Positions 39,929 through 52,425 of a stretch of 64,000 nucleotides of DNA are shown here, one piece after another (position 1 is the first letter of the stretch; each line of letters opens with the position of its first letter). Location: contig NZ_CP025000.1 in the NCBI RefSeq assembly GCF_002808045.1, positions 1,364,001 to 1,428,000 on the forward strand, in the 5' to 3' direction. The DNA comes from Idiomarina sp. X4 (GTDB taxonomy: Bacteria > Pseudomonadota > Gammaproteobacteria > Enterobacterales > Alteromonadaceae). The notes below the pieces were generated by a model. That model saw only the letters and a program-made list of their open reading frames with translations. It was not told the DNA's origin and did no database searches. The translations under genes were made by a program, and so were the position numbers.

Positions 39929-41200
39929 ATGCTTAAGAAATTAGCAGTAGGCATAGCCGTTGGTTTGGCGGCGACATCAGCGCAGGCAGGAAACTGGCTG
40001 CATTGCGGGGACGTATTCGATAGTCAATCCGGACAGCTTATTGGTGAGCGGTACATTGAAGTTGAAAATGGTGATATTAAGGCGGTCAAAGTGAATTCAC
40101 CGGGAAGCTCCAACCAAGTAACCGACTTGTCAGACAGTACGTGTTTGCCGGGGTTTATTGACCTCCATGTGCACTTAGACGGTCAGTCCGGGCCAAATTC
40201 GTACATCAAGCAGTTTACTCAAAACCCGGCGGACTTAGCCTTGATTGCTCAGCACTACGGCATGAAAACGCTGAAAGCGGGATTCACAACGGTTCGTAAT
40301 CCAGGTGATTCTGACAATGTGACCATTGCTTTGCGAGATGCCATTAACGCCGGTATTACCGATGGACCACGCATTTACACCGCAGGCAAGTCTATTGCAA
40401 CAACGGGGGGGCATGCGGACCCGACAAACGGTTGGAAAGAACAACTGATGGGTCGTCCAACTCCAAAAGATGGTGTTATTAATAGCGCCGAAGGTGCTCG
40501 AGAAGCGGTTCGTCAACATTACAAAGACGGTGCTGACTTCATCAAAATTACCGCAACGGGCGGTGTATTGAGCATGGCAAGCAGCGGTGACAACCCTCAG
40601 TTTACTGACGATGAGTTAGAAGCCTTGGTTGATATTGCTGATGATTACAATTTTCATGTCGCCGCCCATGCGCACGGCAAAGCCGGTATGCTTCGTGCGG
40701 TAAAAGCGGGTATTGCTTCAGTTGAACATGGTACTTATATGGACGACGAAGTGATTGCGGCAATGAAAGAGCATGGTACGTATTTAGTACCGACGATTTT
40801 GGCTGGAAAATTTGTTGCTGAGAAAGCTGAAATTGACGGATATTTTCCTGAGGTTGTGAGACCCAAAGCGCGCGAAATTGGTCCGAAAATTCAGGATACC
40901 TTCGCCAAAGCTTATAAAGCGGGTGTGAATGTGGCGTTTGGTACTGATAGCGGCGTATCTGCACATGGTGACAATGCTCTGGAATTCCAGTACATGGTTG
41001 AAGCAGGCATGCCTGCAGCTGAAGCGATCCAAGCAGCGACAAGCGTCGCAGCTGATTTTCTGAAGAACGATAAAATTGGCCGTATTGAAGCGAATAAAAA
41101 GGCGGATATTGTGGCAGTAAAAGGTAATCCTTTAGAGGATATTACTCTGCTACAAAATGTCAGTTTCGTGATGAAAGACGGAAAAGTGTATAAGCAATAA
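39929..41200 (+). CDS. Exported metal-dependent amidohydrolase
   Basis: 423 residues with AAGGGGAG before the ATG and signal peptide [20 protein letters not shown]. Metal ligands are visible: HVHLDG (first H-x-H), a later KITATGG lysine region, [16 protein letters not shown] and [13 protein letters not shown] (the terminal Asp). This fits the imidazolonepropionase-like/Xaa-Pro dipeptidase group, with members that cleave prolidase or arylamide substrates. It would act in the periplasm. Follows nsrR by 14 bp; may be under the same promoter. Confidence 0.87.
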
Positions 41201-41215
41201 AATAACCAAGAGGGG

Positions 41216-42103
41216 TCAGTCGAAACGCACTGACCCTTCTAGTTTCAAAGAGGTGTGGTCGCTACTGCGCACTTCGTACTTGGTTTTATCTTCCTCGCAA
41301 TTCACCCACAGCTGTACTCTCGCCGGCAAAATAACCGGGCGCTTAAAAGTCACGTCTATGTAGGTTACCGCTTTTGACTGTTTGCGTTCCAGCTCAGCCT
41401 GAGCTCGAGCCATCATGTACATACCGTGAATAATCGGTTTTTCGAAACCAAACCAGCGCGACACGAGCGGATGTAGGTGAATGGGGTTAAAGTCGCCGGA
41501 TATACGGGCGTATCGGCGGCCCATACCGCTGCCTAACTGCCAATGAGCCAAGTTGTCCCAGCCTTCGTCGGGTTCGAAAGGTTTCGGCGGTGCTTTCTTT
41601 GTTTGTGCCTTTGCGTTATCGGACTTCATGACTTGATAAACGCTGGTACAGGTCGCCACTTTTTCACCTTCTTGCCAAAACTCGACCGTAAACTGCGGTC
41701 TTAACCGGCGTGGAGACACATCAGGTCCGCGCTTAGGTACTTTGACTTTTGACACCAGCTGAAACGACTGGTCAGTTTGAATAACCGCATGGCGCTCTAG
41801 TTTGTTGCTGACGTGCACCAGACCCGGTGCAGGCCAAGGGAAGCTGTCGTCGAGCATTTGCGCTAAGTGTGCGCGTTGTGCAATGCAATACAGCATGGCA
41901 AGCGGAACATCACTAACAAAACCACCAAAAGCCTCGTGATATTTTTCTAGCTGTTTAGCTGCCGGAGCCGGAATAGAATAATGCTTTTCCAGCGTTTCTG
42001 AATCAGCCTCAGACTCATCGCTACGCTGTAAGGTAAATAATGACCTGAACAGCATAGTTGGCATGGGGGCAAGTTTTTGCGGATGGTTATCCACACGTTC
42101 CAT
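41216..42103 (-). CDS. MaoC-like dehydratase (hotdog fold)
   Basis: 295 residues. The MaoC signature ISGDFNPIHLHPLVSRWFGF, with Asp and His at the active site, lies near residue 208, followed by KPIIHGMYMMARAQAELE. The first half holds a second, degenerate hotdog unit. It should hydrate enoyl thioesters, perhaps in an aryl or fatty acid side pathway. Convergent with the amidohydrolase gene, 15 bp apart. Confidence 0.82.
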   Translation of the reverse strand: MERVDNHPQKLAPMPTMLFRSLFTLQRSDESEADSETLEKHYSIPAPAAKQLEKYHEAFGGFVSDVPLAMLYCIAQRAHLAQMLDDSFPWPAPGLVHVSNKLERHAVIQTDQSFQLVSKVKVPKRGPDVSPRRLRPQFTVEFWQEGEKVATCTSVYQVMKSDNAKAQTKKAPPKPFEPDEGWDNLAHWQLGSGMGRRYARISGDFNPIHLHPLVSRWFGFEKPIIHGMYMMARAQAELERKQSKAVTYIDVTFKRPVILPARVQLWVNCEEDKTKYEVRSSDHTSLKLEGSVRFD

Positions 42104-42174
42104 AGTGATAGTGACTCCCTACTGACTTAGTGGTTATTCTCGCACATGTTGCAAAAATTCAACAGTCCGACCAC

Positions 42175-42199
42175 TAAAAAGCCGCTCCGAAGAGCGGCT
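42175..42199 (-). terminator. Intrinsic terminator of betT
   Basis: On the minus strand AGCCGCTC/GAGCGGCT with a four-base loop (42199-42180), then TTTTT (42180-42176). It lies 19 bp after the betT stop at 42218. Confidence 0.8.
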
Positions 42200-42217
42200 A
42201 CTCTAGTTTTCCCGGTG

Positions 42218-44257
42218 TTACTTGTTGGTTTCTATATCGTCATTGAGATCTTCATCGTGCTTTTCGAGATCCCATGGCAGAACACCCGGACTGTGATGTC
42301 TGAAGTGCAGGTAGTTCTCGAATTGGTTAATGACGTCATTGATGATATCTGATGACTCATAACCGTATAGATCATACGACTGACCACCTTGTCTCAGGAA
42401 CACCTCTGCTCGGTAGTAGCTTTCACGGTTTTGGTCGTTGCTGAGCACAAACTCCGGCAGTAAGTAGTCGCGCAGACGAATTTCATACGCAAAATCGAGA
42501 TCATTTTCTCGTTCAACACTAAGAATGATGCGATTGTGCTCTTCGTCCGTTGTAAATTCGGCTGGCCAGTCCTGACTTTTCAGTTCTTCTTTTACTTTTT
42601 TCAAAGAGTCTGTCGCAGGTCCGTTAATAAATTCCAATACAGGTTCTTTCTTCGGAAAATCGACCAAGCCGGCTAAACGTTTTTTCCAATAGTCCGGACC
42701 CTCGTTAACACCACGACGGTGATGATGGCGGTGGCTCTTCAGACTATTGTATTGGTGCCCTTCAATAACCAATGCACGCCACATACCGGCTGCCGATATC
42801 AAAATAATGACAGCGAACGGTAAGGCACTGGTTATTGCCGCGGTTTGCAGCGCGCCTAACCCGCCGGCAACCAGCAATACTGCGGCAACAATACCTTCAC
42901 TGCTTGCCCAGAAAACACGTTGCCAAACGGGAGTCTCCATACCGCCTGAAGCTAATGAGTCGATAACCAGTGAGCCAGAGTCCGATGATGTGACGAAGAA
43001 GGTAATAATTAAGAGTACGGTAACAAAGCTAACAATACTGGTCAGTGGCAATTGCTCGTACAGTTTGAACAAAGCGATGGCCTGGTTATCCTGCACTTCC
43101 GAAATGAGTGCTGTGTAACCTTCGTTCATGATCATATTCAAAGCGGTATCGCCAAATACGGCGAACCAGAAAAACGTGAATATGGTAGGCACGAACATGA
43201 CTCCAAAGACAAATTGACGAATCGTTCTGCCGCGACTGATTTTAGCAATGAACAGCCCAACGAAAGGCGCCCACGCGATGGTCCAGCCAAAGATAAATAG
43301 CGTCCAGTTACCAATCCAGTCACTGCGTTCATAGGCTTGCAAGTTAAAGGTCCGTTCGACAATGCCGCTTAAGTAGGCCCCAGTGTTTTGCAGGAAGGTT
43401 TCCAGAATGTGGATGGTAGGCCCGGCAATAAACACGAATAACAACAGGAAAAGCACCAGTGTCATGTTCAATAGAGATAATCGTTTAATCCCCTTATCCA
43501 TACCGGCAACAACCGAGGCTATCGCCGCGAGAGTGATAACACCTATCGCAATCACTTGCACGGTTGTCCCCACAGGAATATCTTCCCACAGGTAATTGAG
43601 GCCGGTGTTAATTTGTATCACCGACAAGCCCAGGGTTGTGGCAATACCAAACATGGTGCCTAACACGGCAAAGGTGTCCACAGCGTGTCCTGCCGGGCCA
43701 TTAATTTTCTCGCCAATTAACGGGTACAAGGTTGAGCGCATCGAAAGTGGCAGGCCATGTCGAAATGAGAAATACGCTAAAACTAAGCCGACCAGCCCGT
43801 AGATGGCCCAAATGTGAAACCCCCAGTGGAAATAAGCAATTTGCATTGCCTGCTTGGCGGAGCCAACGGTTTCTGCGGCGCCCGCAGGGGGCTCAGCATA
43901 GTGCAACACTGGCTCGGCAACGCCGAAGAAAAGTAAAGCAATACCGTACCCTGCAGAAAACAGCATGGCGAACCAAGAGGTAAAGCTGTATTCCGGTTCA
44001 CAATGGTCTGGGCCTAACTTAATACGCCCCCAGCGTGATATTGCCACACCAATAATGAACACTAAGAAAAGAGCGACGGCGAGCATGTAAAACCAACCAA
44101 AGTTGTCAGTAATGCCTGCTAACGTCCAGTTAAACAGTTCACCGGCTTTTTCAGGCGCGCTTAACGTCCCTATTACCAGCAAAGCGATGACAATAACAGC
44201 CGGTAAAAACACCGGAATCAGTATTGCGTTGTGCCACTTAGCTTTCTCCGCTGACAT
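42218..44257 (-). CDS. betT: BCCT family choline/betaine transporter, BetT-like
   Basis: 679 residues against 677 in E. coli BetT. Twelve membrane helices with the BCCT signature around WTLFIFGWTIAWAPFVGLFI and ISRGRTIRQFVFGVMFVPTI, then a cytoplasmic C-terminal domain of about 150 residues (LRDYLLPEFVLSNDQNRESY and YDLYGYESSDIINDVINQFE), typical of the osmosensing tail of BetT. Imports choline or glycine betaine with a proton under osmotic stress, fitting a marine or halophilic host. No betA/betB neighbours here. Confidence 0.85.
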   Translation of the reverse strand: MSAEKAKWHNAILIPVFLPAVIVIALLVIGTLSAPEKAGELFNWTLAGITDNFGWFYMLAVALFLVFIIGVAISRWGRIKLGPDHCEPEYSFTSWFAMLFSAGYGIALLFFGVAEPVLHYAEPPAGAAETVGSAKQAMQIAYFHWGFHIWAIYGLVGLVLAYFSFRHGLPLSMRSTLYPLIGEKINGPAGHAVDTFAVLGTMFGIATTLGLSVIQINTGLNYLWEDIPVGTTVQVIAIGVITLAAIASVVAGMDKGIKRLSLLNMTLVLFLLLFVFIAGPTIHILETFLQNTGAYLSGIVERTFNLQAYERSDWIGNWTLFIFGWTIAWAPFVGLFIAKISRGRTIRQFVFGVMFVPTIFTFFWFAVFGDTALNMIMNEGYTALISEVQDNQAIALFKLYEQLPLTSIVSFVTVLLIITFFVTSSDSGSLVIDSLASGGMETPVWQRVFWASSEGIVAAVLLVAGGLGALQTAAITSALPFAVIILISAAGMWRALVIEGHQYNSLKSHRHHHRRGVNEGPDYWKKRLAGLVDFPKKEPVLEFINGPATDSLKKVKEELKSQDWPAEFTTDEEHNRIILSVERENDLDFAYEIRLRDYLLPEFVLSNDQNRESYYRAEVFLRQGGQSYDLYGYESSDIINDVINQFENYLHFRHHSPGVLPWDLEKHDEDLNDDIETNK

Positions 44258-44403
44258 AAAAACTCCTGTTTTTATTATGGTTTGTATATATATAGCCTAC
44301 TTAAATTGTTTTGTAATGGGTCACTTTACATTTCTTTTACTGCTTATTTTGTAGTCTTTACGGTATGATGAATGCCCGTTCATATTTTTCAGTTAGTGGT
44401 TAT

Positions 44404-45594
44404 ATGAAGGCTCAGAATTCATCAGTTGATTTAGTGAGTTTAACGAATGCACTGCCGGGCGCGGTCTATCAATTAGAGCTAACCGAAAGTGGCGACTGGC
44501 ACTTTCATTTTGTTAGTGAAGGTATTGAAAGCATTTACGGGTGCACCGTGAGTGAACTTCAGAAAAACACATGTGTCTTGAAAGATATTATTGTCGCTGA
44601 TGACTATGAGGCGGTAGTCAATAGCTTACTCGAGTCCGCGAAATATCAAATTCCGTGGAACAAAGAGTACCGAGTGGTTCGTAACGGTGAATTGCACTGG
44701 GTGTACGGGCATGCAGTGACCGAGCGGCAGGCGAATGGCAGTACGCTCTGGAAAGGGCAGTTACTGGATATTACTGAGCGGAAGCAGTTGGAATTGGCGG
44801 TGAAACGTCACCAGCGAAACCTTGAGCTGGCCGAACGAGTGGCAAATTTAGGCCACTGGAAACTGAATTTAAACACTGGCAAGTCGGTTTGGTCGGATAC
44901 TGTGTATGAGCTCTATGGTTTGGAAAAAAGCAAGACTGACCCCGGTCTTGATATTGTCATGGAAAAAACGCACCCACAGGACCGAAAAGCCGTAACCGAC
45001 GCTATTGAAGCCGCCAAAAAGTCAGGTGTGCGCGACGTGGAACATCGTATTATTCGCAGTGACGACACCGTTCGGTGGTTGCGGGAATCCGGTATTTATC
45101 AGCTTGATGAGAATGGTGATGAAATTATTTTTGGCACGGTTCAGGATATTACCGACTACAAAGAGATGGAGCTGAAGTTGCGCAGCACCGGTGGGGAGGA
45201 TGAACACACAGGCTTCTATAACCGACGTATGATGTTGCGTGCTCTCCAGCGACGGTTCAGTTTTTATAAAGCCCACCCAGAATACCCTTATTTTTTACTG
45301 GTTTTGAAAGTCACTAATGACTCTAAAACGCTCGCTAGAGCGGCAGAAATTGTTCGCGCGAATATCAGAGATTACGACACACCAGGACATTTAGGCAATG
45401 GCTTAATTACCGTTTTGCTGTCGACTCTGTCACGTCCGGAAAATAACAGCAGCCTTCGTCGTGTTATAACGGAACTGAGCGACGCCGGCATTGAAAGCCA
45501 TTGTATGTTGGAAGAAGCGAAGAATACCGATAACCGATTCGATGACATACTGGCGCGGGCATTACCTCGAGAAGCTGATTGCAGTTTAAATTGA
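44404..45594 (+). CDS. PAS-PAS protein with degenerate GGDEF domain
   Basis: 396 residues from the ATG at 44404; ATGs at 44365 and 44368 are alternatives and none has a strong ribosome site. A first PAS-like domain (about 10-130; LPGAVYQLELTESGDWHFHF, ending LLDITERKQLE), a second PAS/PAC (about 140-265; LGHWKLNLNTGKSVWSDTVY and FGTVQDITDYKEMELKL), then a worn GGDEF-like region (TGFYNRRMMLRALQRRF) where the catalytic GG[DE]EF is replaced by PGHLGNGLITV. It cannot be a cyclase; it may bind c-di-GMP or partner proteins. Its stop overlaps the convergent ligase stop by 9 bp; the photoactive yellow protein gene lies beyond. Confidence 0.82.
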   Translation: MKAQNSSVDLVSLTNALPGAVYQLELTESGDWHFHFVSEGIESIYGCTVSELQKNTCVLKDIIVADDYEAVVNSLLESAKYQIPWNKEYRVVRNGELHWVYGHAVTERQANGSTLWKGQLLDITERKQLELAVKRHQRNLELAERVANLGHWKLNLNTGKSVWSDTVYELYGLEKSKTDPGLDIVMEKTHPQDRKAVTDAIEAAKKSGVRDVEHRIIRSDDTVRWLRESGIYQLDENGDEIIFGTVQDITDYKEMELKLRSTGGEDEHTGFYNRRMMLRALQRRFSFYKAHPEYPYFLLVLKVTNDSKTLARAAEIVRANIRDYDTPGHLGNGLITVLLSTLSRPENNSSLRRVITELSDAGIESHCMLEEAKNTDNRFDDILARALPREADCSLN

Positions 45595-46821
45595 CCAATC
45601 TTGCTGCTTGCCCATTTCATTGACCGGAATGGCGTCTCCAAACGTAATATGCGTGGGGACTTCAATATCGAGAAGATGCTCGCTTAACCAATGCTTCAGA
45701 TCAGCTTCCGTTATTTTCTCGCTATGGTTTTTCAGAACCACAAACGCTTTTAACCCTTTACCTTCTGCTGGCTTTTTTTGTCTTACGGCAGCTGCACTGA
45801 CGGCTGGGTGTGACTCGATAAGTGTCATTACTCGCGACGGATAGACATTGGTGCCTTTAATAACAACAGCACTATCAACCCGCCCACTGACAATAAAGCT
45901 CTTATCGGATAGCCAGTTGAGCTTATCGGGCAACTCGTAACTTTGTTGTGTGTGCTTTTCCTGCAGGGTGTTTATCGACTCTTGTTGCCAGCGAGGCAGA
46001 AGTAGAAAGGGTTGCTCCGGTGAGAAGCGATAACCAATACCGGCAGTCTCAGAGCTGCCATAAATTTCAATAACGCGGGATGCGCCTGCCTCATAAAGCG
46101 CATTGATGGTTTCTGCTGGGCACGGGCCCGACGACGTTGTGAAAGTGACTCCGTGGGGTATATGGCTTAGTAGTTTGGTTGCCTGAGTTAAAGCTTCAGG
46201 GAAGCCTATAACGAGGTCGCCCGGCTGCAATGAACCGCTGGTAAATTGCTGAAAGGCACTAAAGCCCCGTATAACGGGAACGTCCAGAATGTCAGGCAGT
46301 AATACCGAGAATAACAACCCGTAAATATGATGCGACGGAACCAACGCAATGACGCGATGAACACTTGTACTTTGGGTACTAATCAGTTTGGCAAAGTAGT
46401 CTGCTTCGTCAGTGAGTTGAGCCCAGGAGTGTCTGCATGGCTTTGGCTGGCCTGTGCTGCCGGAGGTTGTGACCGTTATGTTGTTTGATGCAATGTCGCG
46501 GGCTTTCTGCACTATTTCCGACCAGTCACCGAGCGTGTTTTTGCGCAATAGATAGTCTTCAATACCGCTTTCTTCCATTTGGAAAAACTGTACAACACGA
46601 CCAGCAATTGCCATCCATTCAAGCGAGTCGACCACGATTTCGTTGTCGGTGCTATCGGTTGCTTTCCCGGTTGCTTTACTTTGCGGAACCAGCTCGTCGG
46701 TCGGCAGCCAGCGACGACGTCGCCACTCGTTACTTTCAGCAGGTCGAAGTCTTGTCAGCTCCTCGGCGATAAGATCACCAATGAGCTGAACAAGTGCTGG
46801 CTTTTTTAAGTTGACGCTCAC
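45586..46821 (-). CDS. AMP-dependent acyl/aryl-CoA ligase, probable p-coumarate ligase for PYP
   Basis: 411 residues, short for a typical ligase. The adenylation P-loop TTSGSTGQPK is at 118-127; YGSSETAGIGYRF holds the substrate/adenylate motif, and VSGRVDSAVVIKGTNVYPSR the hinge. Upstream of these, residues 63-105 (VVDSLEWMAIAGRVVQFF and on) resemble an acyl carrier protein with a DSL serine (Ser66). The gene follows the photoactive yellow protein gene after only 1 bp on the same strand, so its likely job is activating p-coumaric acid for the PYP chromophore. A fatty-acid or aryl polyene role is less likely in this context. Confidence 0.8.
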   Translation of the reverse strand: MSVNLKKPALVQLIGDLIAEELTRLRPAESNEWRRRRWLPTDELVPQSKATGKATDSTDNEIVVDSLEWMAIAGRVVQFFQMEESGIEDYLLRKNTLGDWSEIVQKARDIASNNITVTTSGSTGQPKPCRHSWAQLTDEADYFAKLISTQSTSVHRVIALVPSHHIYGLLFSVLLPDILDVPVIRGFSAFQQFTSGSLQPGDLVIGFPEALTQATKLLSHIPHGVTFTTSSGPCPAETINALYEAGASRVIEIYGSSETAGIGYRFSPEQPFLLLPRWQQESINTLQEKHTQQSYELPDKLNWLSDKSFIVSGRVDSAVVIKGTNVYPSRVMTLIESHPAVSAAAVRQKKPAEGKGLKAFVVLKNHSEKITEADLKHWLSEHLLDIEVPTHITFGDAIPVNEMGKQQDWSI

Positions 46822-46822
46822 T

Positions 46823-47200
46823 TTACAGGCGCTTTACAAAGACCCAGTAACTATCACCAGATAAGGCTTTTTTCATATGGACTTTGACTTTCGTGGGCTT
46901 CATTTCATAGTCGAAGACATACTCAAACATGGTATTTAAATCACCATTTTTTACGCCGTCGTCAAAGCGACCCTTGAATTCAGGGCTGTTTGTACAAGGT
47001 GCAACGTCTCGGAAAAAGTTTTTACCGACCACTTCTTCAGGGTTACGACCCGTAATGTCGCCTTCCGCTGCATTGTATTGAATAATTTTTCCGTGACTGT
47101 CGAGCTGAATAGCACCAAACGCAATATCATTGATTTTGTCATCAGACATTTGCGCCAGTTTGTTTTCAATATCTTCTGAACCGAATTGAACAATTTCCAT
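46823..47200 (-). CDS. pyp: Photoactive yellow protein
   Basis: 125 residues, the same length as Halorhodospira halophila PYP and very similar along its whole length. All chromophore residues are in place with the same numbering: Tyr42 and Glu46 ([12 protein letters not shown]), Thr50, Arg52, Cys69 ([11 protein letters not shown]), which carries p-coumarate through a thioester, and Met100 ([13 protein letters not shown]). A blue-light receptor of the PAS fold, in the cytoplasm. RBS AAAGGT. First gene of a two-gene unit with the ligase. No tyrosine ammonia lyase, which would supply p-coumarate, is found in the window. Confidence 0.97.
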
Positions 47201-47346
47201 CGTCTTTTACCTTTTTTGGTCAATGTCTTTCTTTTAGTACCGAACGATGGAGATTAGATCACACTCCTTAACAAATTCTTTACTGTCATAGTCAAAATAG
47301 AGGTCTATACTTATTCTTTTATTAGCAACGTCGAGGGGACACAAGG

Positions 47347-47937
47347 ATGCCAAGAACACCCCAATTTCACCGTGAAACTGCCTTAAATAACGCGTTGTAT
47401 CTTTTTTGGCGACAGGGCTATCACGCCACTTCGATGAAAGACATTGAAGAAGCTATGGATATGCGTCCCGGTAGTATTTATGCGGCGTTCGGTAATAAGG
47501 AAGCCTTATTTAAAGAAGCGTTGGATGCTTACTTTTCTATGGTTGAGCAAAATTTTCGGGAAACCATCGCCAAGCAGCCATCGGTGCTACAAGGGTTCCG
47601 TCAATATTTGAAAGATATTGCAAGCACGGGCGAGAGTTGTGCGCCCACTAAAGCGTGCATGTTGGTCAAAACATTATTGGAGTTTGCGCCGGAAGATAAA
47701 GCCTTTAGTGACCCGGTATATGCATACTTTGATTCAATTGAGACAATGTTTAAAAGCGCGTTGGAAGACGCAAGAAGCCGTGGCGAGCTCAGTAAAAAAA
47801 GCTCACCCGGGCAGTTGGCTAGACTGATTCAAACCAATGTGATTGGTTTGAGGACAATGGCACGGCGGAGCCTGCCGCAGGCGCAATTGGAAGTGTTGGT
47901 CGATGACGTTATCGCCCGCATTATTCCAGTGAATTAA
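47347..47937 (+). CDS. TetR family regulator
   Basis: 196 residues. MPRTPQFHRETALNNALYLF and then RQGYHATSMKDIEEAMDMRPGSIYAAFGNKEALF give the TetR helix-turn-helix; the rest is a helical ligand domain with a conserved CAPTKACMLVKTL segment that resembles the AcrR/ComR-type regulators. It starts 146 bp from pyp in divergent orientation, and it may govern that operon or the convergent MFS gene, whose stop it overlaps by 17 bp. Confidence 0.88.
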   Translation: MPRTPQFHRETALNNALYLFWRQGYHATSMKDIEEAMDMRPGSIYAAFGNKEALFKEALDAYFSMVEQNFRETIAKQPSVLQGFRQYLKDIASTGESCAPTKACMLVKTLLEFAPEDKAFSDPVYAYFDSIETMFKSALEDARSRGELSKKSSPGQLARLIQTNVIGLRTMARRSLPQAQLEVLVDDVIARIIPVN

Positions 47938-49129
47938 ATAGTCCTTTGTAGCCCCTGGGATTAAACTGCCAAGTCATTGCCAGAATAATTAAGCCGACCG
48001 CAATGTGCAATTGCCAGCCGAATGTATAGTTGCCGGAAACATCACGAAACCAACCGGTAATTAACGGCATAAAGCTGGCAAACATAAAACCGATGCCTTG
48101 CATAAAAGACACCAGGCGCCCTGCCTGAACGGGATTATCAATATGGTCTAACGCCATGACAATACACAGTGGAAAGGCGCCGCCTAAACCGAATCCGCAA
48201 AGCGCCGACCATAGCCAGGGGGAAACGCCAGGAAACCAGCTCAGGCCAACAAAGCCAATCATTTGCGTCATAACGGCAAGCGTTAACCAAGGTCGGCGAT
48301 CTTGAGAACGTGATAACGTAGGCAGCACTAACGCCCCAATGACTTGAACGAGAGAGAAAAGCGCCAACAGGTTCCCTGATGCTTGGGCTGACCAACCAAA
48401 CTCTGCGTAAAAGGGAGCTATCCAGGCAATAAAGCCCGCATAGCCTGCATTTACTAAAGCGAAGTAGGCACCGAGCACCCAGGCTCTTGGTGACTTGTAG
48501 GCTCGCAGTAATAAATGCCTGGGTGGAATACTGGCGACGGGTGTCCGGTTGACTGGTAAATACCAAATGACCAAAACCAGCGCTGCCAGAAGACTCCAGC
48601 TACCCATTGCCTGATAGCGTTCTGGCAATAAATTAGCGGCCCAGGGCGTGGCAACCGCGCCTAATGCTGCCCCGCCTATTAAAGCCGCTGACCACAGCCC
48701 CGTGACCAATCCAAGACGTTTAAGATATTGCTGCTTTGTCAGCTCGGGAATCACTATGTGCAATAGGGAAATGCCGACACCGCCAACCACCGCGCTGGTT
48801 ATCATACTGGTACTGGTTGGTTCAAAGAGGCGGGAAACTAAACCAGCGGTTAAAATGAAAAGTCCCAAACCAATACCATGGCGGTAACCCAAAGCGGTGG
48901 TAACACGTCCGGCAAATAGCGCCATAGCACCAATCATTAGAATAGGAATGGTCGTAAGCAGCGATACTTCACTGAATGACAACCCGGTTATGTCGCGTAA
49001 TTCACCCGTTAATGGACCGATAGACGTAAGTAACGGTCTTAAATTCAGCCCTAATAGTACTAAAACAGCCAAGCTAACGACGAGTAGAATTCCTGAGGGC
49101 GCAGGAGTAAACGTTGGTCCTTTTGACAA
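47921..49129 (-). CDS. MFS transporter of the CynX/NimT type
   Basis: 402 residues, twelve helices. The family signature LGLNLRPLLTSIGPLTGELR stands in helix 1, followed by SLLTTIPILMIGAMALFAGR. CynX/NimT members export or import cyanate, nitroimidazoles and other small compounds; the substrate here is unknown. Convergent with tetR and divergent from gmk. Confidence 0.85.
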   Translation of the reverse strand: MSKGPTFTPAPSGILLVVSLAVLVLLGLNLRPLLTSIGPLTGELRDITGLSFSEVSLLTTIPILMIGAMALFAGRVTTALGYRHGIGLGLFILTAGLVSRLFEPTSTSMITSAVVGGVGISLLHIVIPELTKQQYLKRLGLVTGLWSAALIGGAALGAVATPWAANLLPERYQAMGSWSLLAALVLVIWYLPVNRTPVASIPPRHLLLRAYKSPRAWVLGAYFALVNAGYAGFIAWIAPFYAEFGWSAQASGNLLALFSLVQVIGALVLPTLSRSQDRRPWLTLAVMTQMIGFVGLSWFPGVSPWLWSALCGFGLGGAFPLCIVMALDHIDNPVQAGRLVSFMQGIGFMFASFMPLITGWFRDVSGNYTFGWQLHIAVGLIILAMTWQFNPRGYKGLFNSLE

Positions 49130-49242
49130 AATAATACCGCTGGTTATTTAAAACCTTACTTTACTGAATTTTCATCGTTGTGTGAAACCGTGTTATTCTT
49201 TGGCGCCAACAGTCGCTATCCTTTACTGAAAGAGTACCCGTT

Positions 49243-49884
49243 ATGACCGCATCTACGGCGCCAGGGAATTTATTTATCGTTGCAGCCCCCAGTGGTGCAG
49301 GTAAGTCGAGTTTAATAAAAGCTTTGTTGGACAAACACGCAGACAACTCCATGCAGGTGTCTGTTTCATCAACCACGCGCGCTCCCAGACCGGGAGAGGT
49401 AGACGGTGTGCATTACCACTTTTTAGACGTTGATGCATTTGAGAAGCGCATAGCCGCCGGGGAATTTTACGAATGGGCCAAAGTGTTCGACAACTACTAT
49501 GGTACGTCACGTAAGGTCGTTGAGTCGCTGTTGGCTGAAGGCAAAGATGTCTTTTTGGATATTGACTGGCAGGGTGCTCAGCAAGTGCGTGAACATCACC
49601 CCGAGGTGCGTTCTATCTTTATTGTGCCACCAAGTTTGTCAATTTTAGAGCAACGTCTCAGGGCGCGTGGGCAAGACTCAGAAGAAGTTATTGCTAAACG
49701 CATGGCCAAAGCTCAGGCGGAAATGTCGCATTATCATGAGTTCGATTACCTGTTGGTGAACGACGATTTTAATGACTCGCTGAATGCGCTGGAGCACATT
49801 GTGATGGCACAACGGCACAAAATGCCGCACCAACAAGTAAGATATTCACAGGTATTGAAGGAATTACTTGGATCGTCAGGCTGA
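49243..49884 (+). CDS. gmk: Guanylate kinase
   Basis: 213 residues. P-loop [15 protein letters not shown] near residues 15-29, then [20 protein letters not shown] and [12 protein letters not shown], the GMP-binding signatures. Converts GMP to GDP with ATP, in the cytoplasm. Heads the gmk-rpoZ-spoT-ridA block; the rpoZ promoter seems to overlap its 3' end. Confidence 0.97.
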
Positions 49885-49896
49885 ATTCCGTATAAT
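49868..49896 (+). promoter_or_regulatory. Candidate promoter of rpoZ-spoT
   Basis: TTGGAT at 49868-49873 and a perfect TATAAT at 49891-49896, separated by 17 bp and overlapping the gmk stop. It is 52 bp before the rpoZ start. Confidence 0.5.
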
Positions 49897-49947
49897 TCTT
49901 AGCCTTTCGAAAAATGTCACTCAAGTTTTAGTGGGAGTAAGTAAGCC

Positions 49948-50217
49948 ATGGCTCGCGTAACTGTAGAAGATGCTGTAGACCGTGTAGGTAACCGTTTTGA
50001 TTTAATCTTGTTAGCGTCACGCCGCGCGCGTCAATTAGCTAATGGTAAAGAGCCACTCGTTGAAACTAAAAACGAAAAACCAACCGTTATTGCGTTGCGT
50101 GAAATTGAGCACGGCTTAATTGATGGCGAACGCTTAGACGTAGAAGAGCAAGCGGCTCAGCAAGAGCAAGATGCTGAAGAACTTCGTGCCGTTGATGCAC
50201 TGCGTGGCATTGAATAA
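49948..50217 (+). CDS. rpoZ: RNA polymerase omega subunit
   Basis: 89 residues. [20 protein letters not shown] and then [10 protein letters not shown] are the omega signature, with a Glu/Gln-rich C-terminal tail. Binds the beta-prime subunit and is needed for ppGpp response; pairing with spoT just downstream is classical. GTGGGAG lies before the start. Confidence 0.97.
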
Positions 50218-50230
50218 TAGAAGTCAGTTC

Positions 50231-50254
50231 GCCAACGGTATCAATACCGTTGGC
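50231..50254 (+). terminator. Hairpin between rpoZ and spoT
   Basis: A perfect 10-bp stem GCCAACGGTA / TACCGTTGGC with loop TCAA, 14 bp after the rpoZ stop. It lacks a T-run, so partial termination, mRNA processing or 3' protection are more likely than full termination. Confidence 0.5.
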
Positions 50255-50319
50255 AAATCCCTCAAATCCCCTTATTCTGAAAGTATATCTATTATCCAGT
50301 CTTAACTGGGGAGTTACTG

Positions 50320-52425
50320 GTGTACCTATTTGAAGGTTTAAAAGCGCAAATTAGCGAGTATCTGCCGTCTGACCAAGTCGACAGAGTAGCCGAGGCATTT
50401 GTTGTGGCTAATGAAGCTCACAGCACGCAAAAGCGCAGTAGTGGTGAACCTTATATTACCCACCCGGTGGCGGTCGCCAGCTTACTGGCCGATATGCGGC
50501 TTGACTGCGAAACTATCATGGCAGCGTTGCTGCATGATGTCATAGAAGACACAGAAACCAGCCAGGAAGACCTCGCCGAGCAGTTTGGTTCAACGGTTGC
50601 GACCTTGGTAGAGGGCGTGTCTAAACTCGATAAGCTGCAATTTAACTCAAAAGAAGAAGCGCAAGCGGAAAACTATCGCAAAATGATAATGGCGATGGTG
50701 CAGGACATTCGTGTGGTGTTAATAAAGCTGGCGGATCGCACACACAATATGCGAACCATTGAACACCTGCGCCCCGACAAGCGTCGCCGCATTGCCCGGG
50801 AAACATTAGAGATTTATGCTCCCTTGGCTCACCGGCTGGGTATTCATGACATAAAGAATGAACTTGAGCATTTAGGCTTTTGGGCACTTTATCCGTGGCG
50901 TGCGCGGCTATTGGAGTCGGAAGTTAAAAGAGCGCGGGGTAATCGCCGTGAATTTACTGATCGAGTCAAAAGCGAAATATATTCTCGGTTGGAAGGTAAT
51001 AACATCAGTGCCCGCGTGCTGGGACGCGAAAAGCATTTACACAGTATTTATCGGAAAATGCAGACCAAAGAACTCAAGTTTGAGCAAGTAATGGATATTT
51101 ATGCGTTCCGGGTCATTGTGGACAGCGTCGACACCTGTTACCGGGTTCTGGGAGCGTTGCATAATCTGTACAAACCAATCGAGACGCGTTTTAAGGACTA
51201 TATTGCGATTCCAAAGTCCAATGGCTACCAGTCGTTGCATACCTCATTGAAAGGACCGCATGGAGTACCGGTTGAAATCCAAATTCGTACGGAAGAAATG
51301 GATTTAATGGCTGACCGAGGGGTTGCGGCGCACTGGATGTACAAGAAAACCGATGACTCTGGCACTACCGCTCAGGTGCGTGCTCGTAAATGGATGCAAA
51401 GCTTGCTTGAACTCCAGCAAAGCGCTGGCAACTCTTTTGAGTTCATTGAAAGCGTTAAGTCAGATTTATTCCCCGAAGAGATTTACGTGTTCAGTCCAGA
51501 CGGACGAATTACTGAGTTGCCGCAAGGGGCAACCGCGGTTGACTTCGCCTACGCCGTGCATACCGACGTTGGCAACACGTGCATTGGTGCGCGCGTCAAT
51601 CATCGCACCTATTCACTCAGTAAGCCGCTGGAAACTGGGCAAACCGTAGAAATAAAAACGGCACCGAATTCGCGTCCGAATATTGCCTGGCTGAATTTTG
51701 TGGTGACCGGTAAAGCACGGGCAAAAATACGACAGTACCTGAAAAGTCAGGAGGCCGACGAAGCTCAACAGTTGGGTGAGCGCTTACTTCGCTCAGCATT
51801 GGGGCCTGTCAGTTACGACGATATCCCCGAATCAGAATTTGATCGTGTGCTAACGGACACCAAAGTCGCTTCGAAAGAAGAACTGCTGAAGCAAATTGGT
51901 CTGGGCAACTTAATGTCCATTGCCATAGCGAAACGACTGTTGGGTGAGTTACAGCCAATAAAAGATGAAAACGCTTCAGAAAAGAGCTTGTCTATTAAAG
52001 GCGCTGAGGGCTTGCTGGTGAGCTTTGCGAAATGCTGCCGGCCAATTCCGGGCGATGACATCATTGCACACGTCAGTCCCGGTAAAGGTTTGGTCATTCA
52101 TCGCCGTGAATGCAAAAACGTGCGTGGTCATGAGGATGATCCGGGACGTTATTTCCCGGTCGAGTGGGATAACAAGCCAGAAGCGGAATTTATTTCAGAA
52201 ATTAGAATCGAAATTATTAACCATCAGGGTGTTTTAGCCCGATTAACCTCTTCAATAGCGACCACCGGTTGTAATATTGACGGACTGAAAACAGAAGAAA
52301 TTGACGCCAATATTTACTTTATCGATGTCGCACTAACGATAAGAAACCGGAAACATTTAGCGGATGTCATACGCCACATTCGAAAAATGCCGGATGTTCA
52401 GCGCGTGACGCGCTTAAGGAAGTAG
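50320..52425 (+). CDS. spoT: Bifunctional ppGpp hydrolase/synthase SpoT
   Basis: 701 residues from a GTG at 50320 preceded by GGGGAG; E. coli SpoT is 702. The HD hydrolase domain ([14 protein letters not shown] and [10 protein letters not shown]) lies at the start, the synthase around [20 protein letters not shown], then TGS ([16 protein letters not shown]), the zinc-finger region [10 protein letters not shown] and a C-terminal ACT domain. Sets the alarmone level in fatty acid, carbon and iron starvation. Confidence 0.97.

Follow-up and report, generated by a model that had tools for sequence, protein, structure and literature searches.

Two described systems lie closest to the locus studied here. 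In Halorhodospira halophila, photoactive yellow protein (PYP) is a single-domain protein of 125 residues encoded in a pyp-pCL-TAL operon, in which TAL is a tyrosine ammonia-lyase gene (PMC12826048). In Idiomarina loihiensis, PYP (Q5QYH6) is also single-domain and 125 residues long and, likened without an alignment, has the same key residues as the protein described below; it has been characterized (447 nm, 0.23 s recovery, biofilm reduced by blue light; PMC12826048) and an adjacent GGDEF protein is its putative binding partner (PMC9664959). The former paper, from 2025, counted 984 PYP homologs, reported a tyrosine ammonia-lyase gene in only 7 predicted pyp operons, and proposed uptake of the chromophore acid for bacteria without this enzyme.

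We looked at the pyp locus of Idiomarina sp. X4 within a stretch of 64,000 nucleotides, hereafter the window, belonging to a genome of 2.617 Mb in a single contig (G000). The host is presumably a non-phototroph. The gene order is BCCT(-), PAS-PAS protein(+), pCL(-), pyp(-), TetR(+), CynX-like(-), gmk(+), and the features used below are the following.

42218..44257, minus strand: BCCT-family transporter, left flank of a probable inserted block (PF02028, 617 bits)
44365..45594, plus strand: PAS-PAS protein with a degenerate GGDEF-like C-terminus, 409 aa (PAS_3 twice; GNGLI replaces GGEEF)
45586..46821, minus strand: pCL, 4-coumarate-CoA-ligase-like, 411 aa, GTG start, beside pyp (TIGR02372, 287.3 bits)
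46823..47200, minus strand: pyp, photoactive yellow protein, chromophore Cys69 (TIGR02373, PDB matches over 1-125, key residues)
47201..47346, no strand: pyp/TetR intergenic region, 146 bp (from ORF coordinates)
47347..47937, plus strand: TetR-family regulator, divergent from pyp (PF00440; retained in two pyp-deleted relatives)

The ORF list and a profile search identified pyp as a single ATG-start open reading frame encoding 125 residues. Its product scored 206.3 bits against the photo_yellow model TIGR02373 (cut-off 143.05) and thus belongs to the modelled family. H. halophila PYP chains aligned with it without a gap over residues 1-125 (1otd_A best, E 3.2e-64; 1kou_A, E 1.7e-62), and 93 of the 125 residues were identical to the 1kou_A sequence, so that a chance match can be excluded on these scores. 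The first-pass annotation had called a complete PYP here and had stated that six residues keep the Halorhodospira numbering. Both claims were confirmed, Y42, E46, T50, R52, C69, and M100 each being found at that number in the alignment with 1kou_A. The same six were identical in all 80 PYP relatives compared; these were the 80 best of 131 found in genome contigs, and the conservation therefore shows only that these residues are typical among close relatives. The window protein is very probably an ordinary, functional PYP. A working photocycle, as the annotation had expected, is well supported as a prediction, and the adjoining downstream ligase-like gene, on which the annotation had been silent, adds to this support. 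Since the I. loihiensis PYP is already characterized, a working PYP in the genus was to be expected, and the finding is correct, not surprising. The rarity ascribed to PYP was overstated: besides the 984 published homologs (PMC12826048), it was present in 13 of 19 genomes of the genus and not found in the other six, one of which (G171) was set aside.

The GTG of pCL starts one base past the pyp stop. Its product missed the curated TIGR02372 cut-off of 334.7, as did all six other Idiomarinaceae pCLs tested (249-289 bits), TIGR02372 being the best model for each. A pCL homolog lay beside pyp in 78 of 80 PYP loci, and in the remaining two (L066, L089) the stretch stops within 310 bases past pyp. 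The pCL of the window's clade is fast-evolving, with 49-52% identity to clade relatives against 86-91% for PYP.

Our best explanation of the locus, with a probability of roughly 0.65 as a whole, combines a pyp-pCL unit, a precursor enzyme common to sensor and pigment, and a pseudo-enzyme neighbour. Genes, motifs, a natural deletion, and co-occurrence are read directly from sequence; every enzyme activity, as well as the substrate, photocycle, and output, is inferred. In this explanation, pyp and pCL would act as a two-gene unit, PYP being a single-domain blue-light receptor, and pCL would produce p-coumaroyl-CoA to be loaded onto Cys69. The p-coumarate would not come from the pyp operon; its likeliest source would be a pigment cluster of the aryl-polyene type at another genomic site, whose ammonia lyase would then serve light sensor and pigment alike as precursor enzyme. 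On illumination, PYP would bleach and its signalling state would act on a partner, the outcome, by analogy with I. loihiensis, being less biofilm in blue light. The PAS-PAS protein would belong to the inserted block yet have its own function, perhaps as a scaffold or binding partner but not as a cyclase. The locus makes it testable where PYPs without an operon tyrosine ammonia-lyase obtain their chromophore, and whether the proposed Idiomarina output partner, the GGDEF protein, truly has that role.

Unlike in H. halophila, the candidate lyase lies away from pyp. G000 encodes two PF00221 lyases, neither of them in the pyp operon. One is HutH, which follows a gene read as urocanase and has NQED at motif 2, and is therefore unlikely to be the chromophore enzyme. 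The second is clustered with genes whose family matches are to an AMP ligase, a ketosynthase, and an MMPL exporter. ORF reading added acyl carrier proteins, acyltransferases, a thioesterase, and a glycosyltransferase to this set, and we take the whole to be a pigment cluster of the aryl-polyene type. As the only PF00221 candidate besides HutH, this lyase suggests that sensor and pigment share their precursor enzyme. A search for papers joining aryl polyene with photoactive yellow protein found none.

Lyases of this aryl-polyene type were present in 17 of the 19 genus genomes and absent from two. The cluster-marker acyltransferase was detected in eight genomes, with the lyase beside it every time (8/8): G000, G188, G196, and G152 have PYP, no PYP was found in G199, G206, and G205, and G171, its PYP status set aside, fits the lyase rule either way. 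Among the 11 genomes without the marker, the lyase was found in 9/9 with PYP and in 0/2 without (G072, G198). Hence, in 19/19 genomes, presence of the lyase coincided with that of PYP or of the pigment cluster, and its absence with the lack of both. The Fisher p for 9/9 versus 0/2 was 0.018, which overstates independence because the 19 genomes are related, and absence of the lyase without PYP and cluster is represented by two genomes only. In G072, the sequence of the pyp site is free of N; its flanks match those of G202, and unrelated genes stand in place of the operon; in G198, the pyp region is rearranged and PYP absence is the result of the search alone.

The setting of the lyase differed among the nine PYP-positive genomes without the marker. 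Five (G197, G201, G202, G203, and G204) have a pyp-pCL-lyase operon. In G200, G132, and G104, the lyase lies behind cryptochrome/photolyase-like genes, the stretch read in G104 holding only the nearer of these. It is alone in G028, where it is 94% identical to the G000 lyase and where the pyp-pCL surroundings resemble those of G197, but with the operon lyase missing. One chromosomal site near a prolyl-oligopeptidase-like gene carries the pigment cluster in G000, the cryptochrome-lyase genes in G200 and G132, and the lone lyase in G028. A DASH-type cryptochrome, a second photolyase/cryptochrome, and an aryl-polyene-type lyase stand in a row at L268:10206-14536 (G200) and L270:5455-9849 (G132), the DASH model having been scored for G200 only (TIGR02765, 555.8 bits). 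In these PYP-positive species without a pigment cluster, the row is possibly a light-related gene set.

Operon lyases of Idiomarina, Aliidiomarina, and Arsukibacterium were 61-68% identical to the G000 pigment-cluster lyase. Those of Halomonas, Alkalimonas, Thiorhodospira, and Pseudidiomarina planktonica were of the classical Tyr-His-Leu type and about 29-37% identical to it (the motif of L055, L083, L084, and L106 was read from the tree alignment and that of L058 and L098 left unread). We built a lyase tree of 48 rows by a quick method with SH-aLRT values only, 11 of 31 pigment-cluster rows being left out. In this tree, 12 operon, 3 cryptochrome-linked, 20 pigment-cluster, and 1 lone lyase formed one group (SH-aLRT 99), from which seven classical lyases, one on a long branch, stood apart (SH-aLRT 96); the order of the settings is not given by it. 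Two spirochaete MAGs have a third sort of lyase beside pyp (L096:2924-4489, L100:8346-9890), with Tyr-His at the selectivity site and 41% identity to the Idiomarina pigment-cluster lyase.

The G000 pigment-cluster lyase has the ASG triad and Gln, not Glu, at motif 2. NQD was present at this motif in 47/47 aryl-polyene-type lyases, versus NQED in 3/3 HutH, and the pattern failed on 7/7 classical tyrosine ammonia-lyases. By a rule quoted in PMC3992019, NQD marks the tyrosine/phenylalanine side. At selectivity motif 1, the G000 enzyme has Phe-His (RFHGCG), not the His at first position that tyrosine ammonia-lyases usually have (a rule quoted in the same paper); it may thus prefer phenylalanine, which counts against the p-coumarate reading. 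FlxA, an ammonia lyase of the flexirubin (aryl-polyene) cluster of Chitinophaga pinensis, likewise departs from motif 1 and yet makes 4-coumarate, and in Chitinophaga a tyrosine ammonia-lyase is known to start an aryl polyene (PMC3992019). The FlxA model gave 313.9 bits with the G000 lyase (cut-off 700), none of the NCBIfam lyase models reached its own cut-off with it, and its activity is a prediction.

Alternatively, p-coumarate of plant or algal origin would be taken up, as proposed for bacteria without tyrosine ammonia-lyase (PMC12826048), and the pigment-cluster lyase would serve the pigment alone, which is consistent with its position in G000. The distribution among genomes without the cluster marker (9/9 versus 0/2) argues against uptake, as do the five of nine PYP-positive genomes of this set that have the lyase within the pyp operon, and we consider this alternative unlikely.

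The output side of the best explanation depends on the PAS-PAS neighbour. The window gene order was identical in I. abyssalis, I. rhizosphaerae, and Idiomarina sp. ATCH4 (3/80 named loci) and was also found in G200, G132, and G188. Outside this clade, the TetR and BCCT orthologs adjoin directly, 122-166 bp apart, in 7/7 genus genomes having both, and for this reason a block made up of pyp, pCL, and the PAS-PAS gene was probably inserted at this junction in one clade. A dedicated role of TetR in pyp regulation is unsupported, since TetR is retained without pyp in G199 and G206 and adjoins BCCT in other species; the pyp/TetR intergenic region contained no operator-like inverted repeat of at least 7 within 40 bases. 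No neighbour recurrent beyond pCL and the lyase was seen across 13 pyp loci, the commonest occurring in 4/13. A tRNA scan of the window and an Rfam scan of 40000-52000 returned nothing.

The PAS-PAS gene is convergent with pCL, their 3' ends overlapping by 9 bases, and its product is 98% identical to a protein of I. piscisalsi, its nearest named relative. Pfam GGDEF gave no match to it at E 0.001, and the cyclase SiaD matched it weakly (E 1.6e-4). We aligned the window protein with 11 of the 14 orthologs found (P0003, P0005, and P0014 were left out) and with one intact paralog from the same genome, L154:4383-6071, which matches Pfam GGDEF across the whole profile. Active PAS-GGDEF cyclases such as this paralog share with the window protein the PAS modules, the domain order, and a predicted alpha/beta C-terminus. 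They differ at the catalytic site: the paralog has GGEEF, whereas the window protein has GNGLI and the orthologs GNGLI, GKGII, or ENGML, so that GG(D/E)EF occurs in 0/12 when the window protein is included. The region of the paralog's FDLDHFKRVNDNYGHAAGD stretch, which we take to be metal- and nucleotide-binding, is also shortened in the window protein. On this motif, we reject the reading of the window protein as an active diguanylate cyclase, and it is predicted not to make c-di-GMP. A structure model from 13 sequences (mean pLDDT 71.7, pTM 0.38) predicted a C-terminal alpha/beta domain, and its Foldseek matches include the LOV-activated diguanylate cyclase 8c05; as the model is modest, these matches count as support only. 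We therefore favour a GGDEF pseudo-enzyme with a role of its own.

Nature has provided a pyp deletion. In G199 and G206, the PAS-PAS neighbour is present (88-90% identity) and PYP was not found; in the interval from the PAS-PAS gene to TetR, pCL is reduced to remnants of 37 and 69 residues, respectively. The junction contains no N, the fused part is letter-identical in both genomes across the join, and G199 misses 71 more bases than G206. Because of this identity over the join, a single shared deletion probably took pyp and most of pCL before G199 and G206 split. Their PAS-PAS genes differ by 74 synonymous and 23 non-synonymous changes (omega 0.070), compared with an omega of 0.066 for the PYP-positive pair G000 and G200; these are Nei-Gojobori counts, the difference between pairs being without a test and dS values above about 1, seen in other pairs, being saturated. 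Strong purifying selection after the loss of pyp indicates that the neighbour does something without PYP, and it could still also serve as a PYP partner where both occur. With the neighbouring genes intact, G199 and G206 are ready-made natural controls.

In the published model, proposed for I. loihiensis, PYP binds to its GGDEF neighbour, and blue light shifts the c-di-GMP output of the latter and hence biofilm (PMC9664959). The PAS-PAS neighbour is probably that protein, the I. loihiensis ortholog itself not being among those aligned. Precomputed annotation assigns Pfam GGDEF to 4 of the 14 orthologs, a possible reason for the published name. This label and the SiaD match speak for the model, as does the fact that the neighbour gene and pyp belong to one inserted block. 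An ortholog occurs in 9/19 genus genomes, seven of them PYP-positive, but is absent from 6 of the 13 PYP-positive genomes. Together with the motif missing from 12/12 aligned proteins and the selection that outlasted pyp in G199 and G206, this makes the model improbable here, and the partner proposed in print is unlikely to act as a cyclase in the window's clade. The first-pass annotation had called the output partner unknown in most bacteria with PYP; the mystery was overstated, yet it stands that the partner is unproven. That pyp is a decaying, functionless relic in the window strain is very improbable, even though it was not found in 6/19 genus genomes (one set aside) and was deleted in the G199/G206 lineage, since all key residues are intact and, between G000 and G200, pyp has an omega of 0.072 and pCL one of 0.175 (Nei-Gojobori counts).

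A wider, joint proposal could equally prove right or wrong. Its first part is that, for PYP of Idiomarinaceae, an aryl-polyene-type lyase replaced the classical tyrosine ammonia-lyase and is now found in the pyp operon, in the pigment cluster, behind cryptochrome genes, or alone, one enzyme feeding both sensor and pigment in strains like the present one. Its second part is that the PYP signal of the clade would bypass a neighbouring cyclase, because the neighbour would be catalytically dead with its own role. What is new here, as read from sequence, is the apparently dead neighbour outliving pyp and the distribution pattern of the lyase.

Two further observations concern the surroundings of pyp. 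Short DNA repeat arrays, seen as many overlapping matches, lie between genes near the former or present pyp site at L277:8618-13435 (G198), L206:11754-14213 (G202), and L278:6873-8181 (G072), and may have helped rearrangement there. A photolyase-like gene, named from sequence reading, lies at most about six genes from pyp in 3/13 loci (L207:3214-4671, L208:13343-14839, and L210:3781-5247).
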